Source: a virus
Reading direction: 5' to 3' (one strand)
Virus record (IMG/VR): IMGVR_UViG_3300030118_000974
Span: 1-33,390 of that record
Length of the DNA stretch: 33,390 nt
A program made the translations under genes and the position numbers. Of the stretch, positions 5,215 through 12,797 are shown piece by piece. Every line of letters begins with the position of its first letter. The first letter of the stretch is position 1. Under the pieces are notes generated by a model. The model did no database searches, had not been told where the DNA came from, and saw only the letters and a program-made list of their open reading frames with translations.

Positions 5215-5752
5215 CGAGAGATATGCACCAAGATAACATTAGTTGGCAAACAACCCAGAACTCTCTGCATGGCTTGGACATCATTGAAGATTAGTCAAAT
5301 CACATATCTCCCATTTGGCTATTTTCTCTTTAACACCACCAGGACATAACTTAGTCAGACATCTCTGGAGATACTAATACTAGTAGGTGTGTTTTAGTCT
5401 GATACCAAATATTTTAACAGCAGAGAGAAACGCTAGAAGTGCGCAGTATTATTCTAGATTTCGAATTCTTACACTCATTTCTCTCTACCTATTGAGTACG
5501 CATAACCTTGTTAGATCTGACACATCACAGTGACAGGCTTGCTACTCGTTATGTATTACGTAATTCAAACGAGACATCCTAGTTTGGTCTAGTGCAGCAT
5601 CTAAGCTGGTTGTTTTTGTACTCAAATATCTTAACGAGGTGTGGGTACGCCAAAGCCATGACACCTGCCTCCTAGGAGGATGTACCGAAATGGTTTCGAA
5701 GGCGTTAACTGGTCACCTCTATCCGTAGTTGATCTTGTACTCGTCAGTACCT
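5213..5752 (-). ncRNA. Candidate large structured RNA (about 540 nt), here called region A
   Basis: This is the longest gene-free gap before 11 kb. No ORF of note runs through it on either strand, and the DNA is full of nested complementary arms. Key helices: 5213-5227 with 5301-5315 (15 bp); 5228-5232/5273-5277 inside it, holding two hairpins; 5355-5360/5397-5402 around two hairpins; 5419-5432/5476-5489 (14 bp); 5492-5499/5618-5625 (8 bp), continued by 5504-5507/5608-5611 and 5511-5516/5599-5604, closing three hairpins; 5636-5641/5714-5719 with 5647-5651/5701-5705. In the two longest helices seven pairs are G.U only when read on the - strand (they are A/C mismatches on +), which sets the strand. 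The - strand then runs into a T5-containing stretch at 5212-5201, a possible terminator. Similar in size and ornateness to ROOL/GOLLD RNAs; membership untested. Confidence 0.65.
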
Positions 5753-5758
5753 ACAGAA

Positions 5759-10502: not shown

Positions 10503-10681
10503 ATATCCTCCTTATTCTGCACTCTATCTTGTACCCCCAGGCGAGGCGTAGCCGAGCCGATTTTTGTTCTGGTTTTGTTCTCTTCTTTCGGTGTATATAT
10601 TGATCCACCTGATTTAGTTCTGTAAACGTCATGGTTTTCTTCATTAACTATTCCCATAGCTATCAATCCAACACATATCAT
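10499..10681 (-). CDS. Small protein carrying a GCGAGGC repeat in its coding sequence (60 aa)
   Basis: GGAGGTAACT immediately before the ATG is one of the best ribosome-binding sites in the window. The N terminus is hydrophobic (MICVGLIAMGIV), the rest polar and basic. Repeat copy R1 (10539-10555) falls inside the frame and encodes part of the SATPRLG segment, so the last about 18 residues may be acquired. First gene of the long - operon. Function unknown. Confidence 0.6.
   Translation of the reverse strand: MICVGLIAMGIVNEENHDVYRTKSGGSIYTPKEENKTRTKIGSATPRLGVQDRVQNKEDI
10539..10555 (+). repeat. Helix motif repeat R1 (GCGAGGC-gta-GCCGAGC)
   Basis: GCGAGGC and GCCGAGC flank a 3-nt loop. On the + strand the arms pair G-C, C-G, then tandem G.A/A.G, then G-C, G-C, C-G. 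Located inside the 10499-10681 gene, GC-rich against AT-rich surroundings. Confidence 0.6.
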
Positions 10682-10725
10682 AGTTACCTCCAGTCTATCT
10701 ATTCTTGGGTTAACCCCCAGTTGTG

Positions 10726-10767
10726 GGAAGATTCCAAGCGAGGCGAAGCCGAGCCTGGAAGTCTTCC
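10726..10767. repeat. Hairpin enclosing helix motif repeat R2
   Basis: R2 (10738-10754) is GCGAGGC-gaa-GCCGAGC. It sits as the tip of a larger inverted repeat: GGAAGA-TTCCA (10726-10736) pairs with TGGAA-g-TCTTCC (10756-10767), 11 bp with one bulge. The whole is a 42-nt stem-loop in the gap between the terminator at 10785 and the 10681 gene. A palindrome GGGTTAACCC (10707-10716) lies next to it and may be an operator for the - operon. Confidence 0.55.
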
Positions 10768-10784
10768 GTTATTTTCGCATATAG

Positions 10785-10819
10785 AAAAAAACCCCCAAGT
10801 CCAGAAGGACTCAGGGGTT
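10785..10819 (-). terminator. Rho-independent terminator of the 10836-11345 gene
   Basis: Arms 10790-10802 and 10807-10819 pair over 13 bp around a 4-nt loop. Two of the pairs are G.U on the - strand. On that strand the stem is followed directly by a T-run (the A-run at 10785-10790). It stands 16 nt after the stop of the 10836 gene, a textbook intrinsic terminator. Confidence 0.85.
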
Positions 10820-10835
10820 AATTTATATTTTATGT

Positions 10836-11345
10836 TTAAGAGCTAAAAGCCTTTGTGTCAATGACAATTGGATTCAAGCCCATAGATTCACGAAATTGAT
10901 TGAACTCTTTAACAGAAAGATCACGATTAGCTGACTTATCAAGATCTTTCCAATCAATTCGATAACCTGAAGCTGTAATGCAAGTAGGAAATGCATTAGC
11001 ATAAGCTTCAAGAGTCTCAGCAATTACTGTGAATTTAGCTTCATTCTCAGTGTGCCAAGTCGCAGAACCAGATTTCTTATAGTTCTCGATAGCCAACTTC
11101 TGAGACTCATGTGCCTTTTGTTTATAAGAATCAATCTTAGAATCCAAGGTTCTCACCACAGCAGTAGTAATGTTGTTAGCAAGATATACCCATTCAGATA
11201 AATCTTCCTTACAAGACTTACTTTTCAATGCCTTCTTAAAGGATTCCTCAATTTTATCTAGTGCATCAATTAAGAGTTGAGAGTTAGAAACAATCTCAAT
11301 TTCTAAGTCTGATACAGATAGTTTATTGTTATTTTTATTACTCAT
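10836..11345 (-). CDS. Unknown protein transcribed alone (169 aa)
   Basis: The start is set at 11345 (MSNKNNNK) because AAAGGAAAATTA precedes it; an ATG six codons upstream has no site. The product is helical in its first 110 residues (LLIDALDKIEESFKKALKSKS...SKIDSYKQKAHESQKLAIEN), with two Cys (C in KSCKED and FPTCIT). It is isolated: a long structured region lies upstream and a strong terminator follows the stop. Placement at a divergent control region suggests an immediate-early or regulatory gene, but no DNA-binding motif is clear. Confidence 0.7.
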   Translation of the reverse strand: MSNKNNNKLSVSDLEIEIVSNSQLLIDALDKIEESFKKALKSKSCKEDLSEWVYLANNITTAVVRTLDSKIDSYKQKAHESQKLAIENYKKSGSATWHTENEAKFTVIAETLEAYANAFPTCITASGYRIDWKDLDKSANRDLSVKEFNQFRESMGLNPIVIDTKAFSS

Positions 11346-11367
11346 GATTAATTTTCCTTTCAATGAG

Positions 11368-11396
11368 TTGATTTAAGAAATACGATAAATTGTAAT
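11368..11396 (+). promoter_or_regulatory. Putative + strand promoter for region C
   Basis: TTGATT (11368-11373), a 17-nt spacer and TGTAAT (11391-11396) fit a sigma70-type promoter (4/6 and 5/6 matches). TATAAT also occurs at 11404-11409. A start near 11403 would coincide with the beginning of the structured, GC-rich region C. It lies in the leader of the divergent 11345 gene. Confidence 0.45.
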
Positions 11397-11608
11397 AATT
11401 AAATATAATAATTAAAAAATATCGCAACCATTTCGAAGTACACACCTCAGCGTTTGTGTAGGGAAACTTTTAGGATTAGCTCACATCAAGTAAAAAGAAA
11501 TGTGAGTAATCCGTACGAATCGTTTACGATTCGTTAAAGATGACTGAAGCAAACCAGTCACACAGCCCCGCTTCGGCTGTGGGAACTCGAAGGGTCAAAA
11601 GAAAATAA

Positions 11609-11626
11609 GCGAGGCGCAAGCCGAGC
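11609..11626 (+). repeat. Helix motif repeat R3 (GCGAGGC-gcaa-GCCGAGC)
   Basis: Same arms as R1 and R2 but with a GCAA (GNRA) tetraloop. It lies within structured region C, on the strand where the tandem G.A pairs are possible. Confidence 0.6.
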
Positions 11627-11791
11627 ATAAAAGATGCAATCCTTGCGAGGTGATGTACAATGGTTAGCGATATAAGCCCCCCGCAGGGGCTTCGAACACC
11701 CATGAGGGGTCGTTGCACTTCTCAAAGCAAGTCACGATGGGGCAAGTTGTCTGCACCTTTAGGTGCGACCACTTGATACCATCCTTGCTTA

Positions 11792-11820
11792 GCCGAGCTT
11801 ACTCTTAATCTGGGCGAGGC
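11792..11820 (+). repeat. Helix motif repeat R4, arms in swapped order
   Basis: GCCGAGC (11792-11798) and GCGAGGC (11814-11820) form the same helix as R1-R3 but with the loop at the opposite end. Two U.G pairs and one A-U continue the helix inward. This circularly permuted copy suggests that the helix itself, rather than a linear element, is what is kept. Confidence 0.5.
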
Positions 11821-12323
11821 GAGGAAGTTTTCGCAACGACTGTGATTCTGAAAGGTTTGACTGGAACATGACTGTTGATCATTGGGTCTTTCAGTATCAC
11901 GAAATAAGAATGGGTGCGACAGCACCTCCGTAAGGAAAGATGCCAACCAACCTATTGAATATATATTGTTACGATTAAGAAGACGGAGTAGGTTAAGAAC
12001 AAGTGAAGCATTCGTCACGCTTAGTCGAATGCGTAACGGTACACGAAGTGTATGTTCGTACATACGTAGTCGTAAAGTCGCCTGATAAGGCGTTCGTCCC
12101 ACTACGTGGGAGAGAAGAGAAGAAGAGAAAAGAGAACGAAAACAAGAGAGTAATTCAAGACGGAAGGGGTTGTAGGGGAAGGGTTCCCCTGCTGGGTCTG
12201 GGCGAAGCCCAGCCGACTGCAGTTCGGAGACTGCCACGGAGTGATGTGAACGGATGTTGCGTCAAAGGGGGGTTTTTAGAAGACGGTATGCCGATGACAA
12301 AATGGATGGGGTCTAAGAGACAA

Positions 12324-12402
12324 GGGGGGGTTTGTTAAAACAAACTCGTACTTGACACATATACACTAATGAGACTATATTGAAACGGTGGGGGGTTTGT
12401 TA
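12324..12402 (+). promoter_or_regulatory. G-tract direct repeats and palindrome around the late promoter
   Basis: GGGGGGTTTGTTA occurs at 12325-12337 and again at 12390-12402, one copy upstream of the -35 and one downstream of the -10. A looser copy (GGGGGGTTTTTA) lies at 12267-12278. The first copy is part of a palindrome, GTTTGT-taaa-ACAAAC (12330-12345), ending 6 nt before the -35. Likely operator or activator sites. Confidence 0.5.
12352..12381 (+). promoter_or_regulatory. Strong sigma70-like promoter for the structural genes
   Basis: Perfect -35 TTGACA (12352-12357), an 18-nt spacer and -10 TATATT (12376-12381). It is the best promoter in the window and points at the 20-kb run of packaging and virion genes. 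Use of host sigma70 agrees with the lack of a phage RNA polymerase in view. Confidence 0.75.
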
Positions 12403-12543
12403 CGATCCTTTCTGTACCTCCCACGTTAATCTATCATATTTACAAATTCTGAATGGTTTGGTGTTTTAGAGTACCCTACCATTCGAATATCAATCAACTA
12501 GCCTAAATCGAGAGATATGGGCATTTAACAAGGAGAATAAACT
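12382..12543 (+). other. Leader of the structural operon, no gene seen
   Basis: The 160-nt stretch holds one hairpin, 12451-12457/12478-12484 (GAATGGT/ACCATTC, plus a U.G at 12450/12485), and ends with AAGGAG before the ATG at 12544. I see no coding frame with support. Confidence 0.45.
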
Positions 12544-12645
12544 ATGCCAATGGTAAAAGGTAAAAAGTATCCATATACAAAAAAAGGTATGGCTGCTGCA
12601 AAGAAAGCTAAAAAGAAAATGAAGAACAAAAAGGGTATGAAGTAG
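12544..12645 (+). CDS. Very small basic protein (33 aa)
   Basis: AAGGAG lies eight bases before the ATG. The product is almost half Lys (PYTKKGMAAAKKAKKKMKN), so nucleic-acid binding is likely. I have seen similar YTxKGMxAAKKAxK mini-proteins next to packaging genes of marine phages and elsewhere; their role is unknown. First gene of the structural operon; its stop overlaps the next GTG start. Confidence 0.65.
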   Translation: MPMVKGKKYPYTKKGMAAAKKAKKKMKNKKGMK

Positions 12646-12797
12646 TGACTGATGACGAAAGAATAAAGCAGTTAAAAGGATTAGACAGACCCTTAACTCC
12701 AGAAGAAATGGAAGAACTATGGGATTTAGAAAATCTAAAAAAATACGAAACACCCTTTGCTAAAGTTCAAAATAAAAACAAGAAGTTCATGGTATAA
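12645..12797 (+). CDS. Small charged protein, GTG start (50 aa)
   Basis: The frame begins with GTG at 12645, overlapping the previous TAG by one base, and ends at 12797. The product is a helical, charged peptide (LTPEEMEELWDLENLKKYE) with a basic tail. No ATG start is available early enough. It fills the 150-nt gap between its neighbours. Confidence 0.55.
   Translation: MTDDERIKQLKGLDRPLTPEEMEELWDLENLKKYETPFAKVQNKNKKFMV

Follow-up and report, generated by a model that had tools for sequence, protein, structure and literature searches.

The DNA analysed (the window) is an entire linear virus record of 33,390 bases. Its portal protein was closest to that of Pelagibacter phage HTVC106P (50.7%), followed by those of other tailed phages, including the OM43 phage Venkman. 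Small leftward genes filled the region from about 5.8 to 11.35 kb, and a rightward late operon containing the terminase, portal, scaffold, and major head protein genes began at 12,544. About 1.2 kb between the leftward gene at 10836-11345 and this operon contained no gene, and the element described here, at 11403-12276, lay within that interval. The phage is marine and podovirus-like, and the element is situated at its early/late junction. The features of the locus were as follows, with related contigs designated by L numbers.

10790 to 10819, minus strand: intrinsic terminator of the partner gene, 13 pairs followed by a T tract; a similar hairpin occupies the same place in L011, L085, L089, L091, and L092.
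10836 to 11345, minus strand: divergent partner gene, 169 aa, with a predicted all-helical product and a leftward terminator of its own; swapped jointly with the element.
11364 to 11419, no strand: AT-rich spacer, about 92% AT in the AT profile, with weak divergent promoters predicted from consensus matches in a promoter scan (leftward, TTGCGA-18-TTTAAT; rightward, TTGATT-17-TGTAAT, start at about 11402).
11403 to 12276, plus strand favoured: hairpin-dense non-coding element and candidate structured RNA, from hairpin counts and folding against shuffles, broken ORFs in relatives, and fewer broken pairs than expected by chance.
12266 to 12402, plus strand: G-run motif, GGGGGGTTTTTA (12266), GGGGGGGTTTGTTA (12324), and GGGGGGTTTGTTA (12390), conserved downstream of the element in relatives.
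12352 to 12381, plus strand: near-consensus late promoter TTGACA-18-TATATT (11 of 12 matches), preceding the late genes.
12388 to 12424, plus strand: hairpin GTGGGGGG...CCTCCCAC at the start of the predicted late transcript.

In the promoter scan, the rightward candidate at about 11402 was weak (score of 7.1). Most types had a leftward promoter candidate within the AT-rich tract that immediately precedes the partner gene, with its start 13 to 45 nt upstream; the candidate in L025 and L017, TTGACG-17-TCTAAT, scored 10.2. The motif GGGGGGTTT(T/G)TTA occurred three times around the late promoter (12266-12424), and its third copy lay inside the hairpin at 12388-12424. The hairpin GTGGGGG...CTCCCAC recurred in relatives, even in those with a different first late gene, and it looks like a late-control site, either a 5'-terminal RNA hairpin or a regulator site. 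L011 (1256-1954) and, at the same place, L090-L092, L096, and L030/L031 had a gene encoding about 230 aa immediately after the late promoter, which the window lacks; in L011 and these relatives the gene had internal GGGGGTTTG motifs.

The original prediction had described the element as a GC-rich region with more than a dozen hairpins and no believable gene, and this description was borne out. Its GC content was 0.47 to 0.48, compared with about 0.36 around it. The number of perfect hairpins (stem of at least 5, loop of 3 to 12) was 14, compared with 5.8 ± 2.0 and a maximum of 10 in 200 dinucleotide shuffles, and 10 hairpins had stems of at least 6, compared with 1.7 and a maximum of 5 in the same number of shuffles. 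Folding energies were far below those of shuffled sequences on both strands, with z values of -7.3 and -7.8 for the plus strand and -11.7 and -8.0 for the minus strand; ordinary coding windows in the same test ranged from +1.2 to -4.0. A coding element was rejected because the overlapping ORFs were frameshifted or stopped in L085 and mostly so in L089, which keeps two of the four in frame. ARAGORN found no tRNA or tmRNA in the window, the Rfam scan found no riboswitch there, and the element itself contained neither iterons, nor any array of direct repeats apart from the G-run motif and short matches in two copies, nor a DnaA box (TTWTNCACA). Perfect DnaA-type boxes in or beside the AT-rich tract were seen only in L025 (element position 109; TTATACACA), L111 (position 85; TTATCCACA), and L115 (position 106; TTATCCACA).

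Pairing was compared among the W-type sequences, namely the window, L085, and L089, the latter two being 92 to 93% identical to the window over the element. Plus-strand pairs in a fold computed from the window alone were broken 18 times in L085, compared with 35 expected under random substitution, and 10 times in L089, compared with 26 expected (P < 0.001 each); in the minus-strand fold, 21 pairs were broken in L085 and 12 in L089, compared with 32 and 24 expected. Over 13 pairs of relatives, which were counted with either member as the reference and hence are not independent, the plus-strand structures had 207 broken pairs against 280 expected and 18 compensatory changes against 6.2 expected, an excess of about threefold, and the minus-strand structures had 216 against 265 and 18 against 5.6, respectively. 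Alignment with homologues, including only three sequences of the window's own type, yielded both a pairing constraint and an excess of compensatory change. Compensatory change in short palindromes can come from templated mutation without selection. The comparisons indicate that pairing is constrained by selection; they are silent on the strand, and templated correction of palindromes could mimic the compensation. Conservation of pairing free of sequence implies a folded nucleic acid. The element is non-coding, folded beyond chance, constrained in its pairing, and conserved in position. Its principal helices were the following.

11420 to 11672, plus strand: domain 1, closed by P1, TATCGCAACCATT (11420-11432)/AATGGTTAGCGATA (11659-11672), and by GTACACACCTC (11438-11448)/GAGGTGATGTAC (11647-11658).
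11561 to 11581, plus strand: hairpin P6, CACAGCC/GGCTGTG, which is CACAGTC/GACTGTG in L085, a compensatory double change.
11609 to 11626, plus strand: hairpin P7, GC-GA-GGC-GCAA-GCC-GA-GC, with tandem G.A mismatches and a GNRA loop on the plus strand.
11674 to 11692, plus strand: hairpin P9, AAGCCCC/GGGGCTT, in which two substitutions in L085/L089 shift the register of the stem to AAGCC.AC/GTGGCTT.
11709 to 11840, plus strand: domain 2, with closing helix GTCGTTGC/GCAACGAC, an irregular stem at 11725-11790, and the apical hairpin AAGTTGTCTGCACC-TTTA-GGTGCGACCACTT.
11842 to 11900, plus strand: 12-bp helix with one T.T mismatch (11842-11854/11888-11900), which shrinks to 5+5 bp in L085/L089.
11926 to 11994, plus strand: proposed crossing pairs CTCCG/CGGAG and AACCT/AGGTT, the letters of which were confirmed.
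12172 to 12192, plus strand: hairpin P17, GTAGGGGAA/TTCCCCTGC, which is GCATGGGGG/CCCCCTGC in L085.

The letters and positions originally given for the helices at 11725-11740/11779-11790, 11842-11854/11888-11900, 11926-11930/11984-11988, and 11949-11953/11990-11994 were exact. Several stems were changed on both arms in L085/L089. In these two contigs, the closing arms of domain 1 were TATCGTAACC/GGTTATCGATA, so that a C-G pair is replaced by T-A and the bulge is displaced, and the outer AAGCAAG/CTTGCTT of domain 2 was replaced by TCGCA/TGCGA. The closing helix TATCGC/GCGATA became TATCGT/A(T)CGATA in relatives, with the bulge moved, and the GGGGAA/TTCCCC stem became GGGGG/CCCCC, with both arms changed. 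Versions of P7 included GC-GA-GGCA-GAAA-TGCC-GA-GC in L121, TC-GA-GGCAC-TT-GTGCC-GA-GA in L085, and a fully paired stem in L089; the apical hairpin of domain 2 was also found in L011/L090/L091/L092. The letters of the crossing pairs were invariant in all three W-type sequences and hence uninformative on pairing, and the element of L011 has CTCCG with no CGGAG after it.

The argument that G.U pairs extend helices on the plus strand only did not survive comparison, as the G.U pairs extending the 12-bp helix were lost in L085 and L089 together with the middle of that helix. Among helices picked without regard to strand, G.U and A.C numbered 9 and 12 in the window and 83 and 72 over 14 elements, and there is no general plus-strand bias. 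Hairpin loops were not purine-rich (49% purine), and the unpaired-A content equalled that of shuffles. Tandem G.A hairpins (4 on the plus strand and 1 on the minus strand), GNRA loops (also 4 and 1), a purine excess on the plus strand (0.57), and wobble-only changes in the 3' domain helix (A3), which are consistent with the plus strand and include no two-sided change, are small-number hints that lean weakly towards a rightward RNA.

Pattern and protein scans identified about 23 distinct viral contigs with the same junction. Every relative examined that has the junction keeps a hairpin-bearing region there, 325 to 921 nt long; the site was never empty. No universal core or segment was found, and the 3' halves of 18 elements were alike only within subgroups. 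Several elements, those of L098, L100, L105, and L115, folded little better than shuffles, and the AT-rich tract was missing in L019/L030/L096-L100. No similar element was detected in cultured phages by blastn; the divergent junction of HTVC106P spans only about 120 nt, provided that the record is joined circularly.

The window and L003/L083 shared 92 to 93% identity on the left as far as 10521 and on the right from 12256 onwards, but everything in between (10522-12255) was different: L003/L083 instead carry a gene for 163 aa and a region of about 480 nt, neither of them related to its counterpart in the window, and the region has a modest folding z of about -2. The right boundary of the swap lay just before the first G-run and the left boundary at the next leftward gene. 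Together with the divergent gene at 10836-11345, the element forms an exchangeable cassette and makes up its non-coding half. The same partner-gene family was present in the window, L085, L089, L025, L017, L111, L115, L019, L030, L096, and L100, and another family was present in L011, L091, L105, and L107. The halves of the element also recombine, in that L011 and L091 have their element in common but no close protein, whereas in L105 and L107 the protein is common to both and the 5' half is not. Hairpin modules common to the window and L011/L091, GCACC-TTTA-GGTGC and CGAACACCCATGAGGG, occurred in swapped order, and further modules were shared with L121. Across the relatives the region is hypervariable and recombining, without a constant core, and in this it departs from published descriptions of the giant RNAs.

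The partner protein was modelled as all-helical (mean pLDDT of 77). It had no Pfam, PHROGs, or PDB relative worth naming, no fold match, and no relatives in the genome collection; a dPPR10 match was rejected as composition bias, with no stretch passing by itself. Phage morons and exchangeable cassettes carry their own promoter and terminator. The partner gene resembles them in having its own terminator and a predicted promoter and in being swapped as a block between otherwise similar genomes, whereas ordinary morons lack a structured non-coding half of 0.4 to 0.9 kb, and the site here is never empty in the relatives seen. In L096, L097, L098, L100, L019, L030, and L031, a palindrome of about 100 nt lay just upstream of the leftward gene, with its outer arm covering the start codon and ribosome-binding site; it resembles hairpins that keep read-through transcripts from being translated.

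Comparison with known RNAs argued against kinship with GOLLD and related families, with no match for GOLLD, ROOL, or OLE in the covariance search. The whole window gave no Rfam match in cmscan at the gathering score, and a permissive scan of 11200-12700 gave only two sub-threshold matches to small sRNAs and no large family at an E value of ≤5; a Clostridiales-2 match at 12158-12272 (27.6 bits, compared with a cut-off of 58.6) was taken as chance. GOLLD resembles the element in being phage-borne, about 0.8 to 0.9 kb long, and rich in stems, and it also has a less conserved 5' part (PMC12286853). It differs in its universally conserved 3' region and frequent location near tRNA islands, compared with no universal 3' region and no tRNAs here, where pairing is symmetric on both strands and no covariance model matched. 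ROOL is likewise a large phage non-coding region with many helices; the element differs in lacking a covariance-model match, tRNAs nearby, and a core shared by relatives. Membership of a diverged giant RNA family (GOLLD, ROOL, or OLE), suggested by similar length (about 0.9 kb), phage location, and many stems, is virtually untenable given the absence of a gathering-score Rfam match or any large family at an E value of ≤5, of nearby tRNAs, and of a constant region in relatives; this reading was already refuted at the sensitivity of covariance models. The methylophage Melnitz has a glutamine riboswitch and a tmRNA (PMC9004378) and is similar to the candidate here in placing structured RNA in phages of streamlined marine bacteria; neither RNA was found in the present phage. 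A literature search on pelagiphage non-coding RNA returned no paper describing this region, and the paper relating HTVC106P to HTVC010P-type phages mentions no intergenic region (PMC10504331).

The element is most likely, with a probability of roughly one half, transcribed rightwards during infection into a fast-evolving, highly folded plus-strand RNA or long leader of about 0.9 kb. Of the original proposal of a structured RNA, the non-coding character, strong foldability, and selected pairing in relatives stood; neither a kinship with GOLLD or another Rfam family nor the exclusive plus-strand logic was supported. Transcription would start in the AT-rich divergent promoter region, at about 11402, and run towards the late promoter, and its product would be a stack of hairpin modules. 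Selection would act on pairing and not on sequence, so that individual hairpins could come and go or pass from one phage to another while the region itself stays present, in place, and folded. The role may be structural, such as shielding or insulating the transcript that enters the late operon; alternatively, the hairpins may be presented to a factor of the phage or the host, for which the partner protein is one possibility. As this is a double-stranded DNA phage, a transcribed RNA is the simpler reading. No terminator for the supposed rightward RNA was found.

It is possible, though not probable, that the palindromes act as DNA with no RNA role, in replication start, packaging, or regulation of both divergent promoters. 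Folding and compensation are strand-symmetric, minus-strand folding and pairing constraint being nearly as strong as those of the plus strand and the minus-strand z even more negative, which tells against an RNA. The position between divergent promoters, beside the AT-rich tract and at the cumulative GC skew minimum, the G-run motif occurring three times next to the late promoter, and the isolated boxes of DnaA type in L025, L111, and L115 also fit a DNA site. However, the change in gene direction explains the skew switch equally well, the AT-rich tract is missing in L019/L030/L096-L100, the window element has no DnaA box, and the tandem G.A and GNRA features are mainly on one strand. The hairpins differ in sequence from one to the next, which is not the pattern of an operator array, and iterons are lacking; repeated copies of one protein site are therefore improbable, and structure is favoured.

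Extreme turnover, mosaic modules, lengths of 325 to 921 nt, precise swapping at the boundaries, and the shuffle-like folding of L098, L100, L105, and L115 would also be expected of a weakly constrained spacer at a recombination joint, where palindromes accumulate and turn over as cassettes swap, with little function beyond insulating transcription units. This is unlikely, because pairs are broken less than by chance and compensatory changes are in excess; moreover, a 33-kb genome packed this tightly would normally be expected to trim a spacer of 0.9 kb, yet the element is retained in all three phages of the W type. Very unlikely, finally, is a minus-strand RNA forming a long structured 5' leader of the leftward gene at 10836-11345. 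Minus-strand folding is strong, and in L096-L100, L030, and L031 that gene has its start codon and ribosome site paired with the long palindrome, but in most types the leftward promoter candidate in the AT-rich tract leaves the element outside the partner-gene transcript.

If transcribed, the element would amount to a large RNA region of a phage with no relation to the giant RNAs already described in phages. More tentatively, and on balance improbably, it could represent a new phage RNA class, hypervariable and modular, in which hairpin density and pairing are selected and sequence is free, and which, at the early/late junction throughout a marine phage clade, is swapped as one cassette with an all-helical protein encoded divergently. 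Such an RNA could be a fast-evolving RNA-protein module against host defence or a late-gene control RNA. Folding kept while sequence is swapped module by module would be missed by covariance searches, which need a constant core. The cassette swap between flanks that are 92 to 93% identical makes function testable by exchanging versions, and the site is shared by about 23 marine phage contigs, none of which is annotated for it in the collections used.

The accompanying claim of two giant RNAs totalling more than 1.4 kb was not supported, because of its other member. The candidate at 5215-5758 folded no better than shuffles (z of -1.8 and -1.2) and was mostly absent from L085, in which about 400 nt (5221-5625) had no match; it sits at a convergent gene junction. 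Elsewhere, at 10540-10565, the hairpin GGCGAGGCGTAGCCGAGCC, which contains tandem G.A mismatches and precedes a T run on the plus strand, formed a rightward terminator-like site between leftward genes, and it recurred with variants in L003, L025, L011, L091, L092, and L111.
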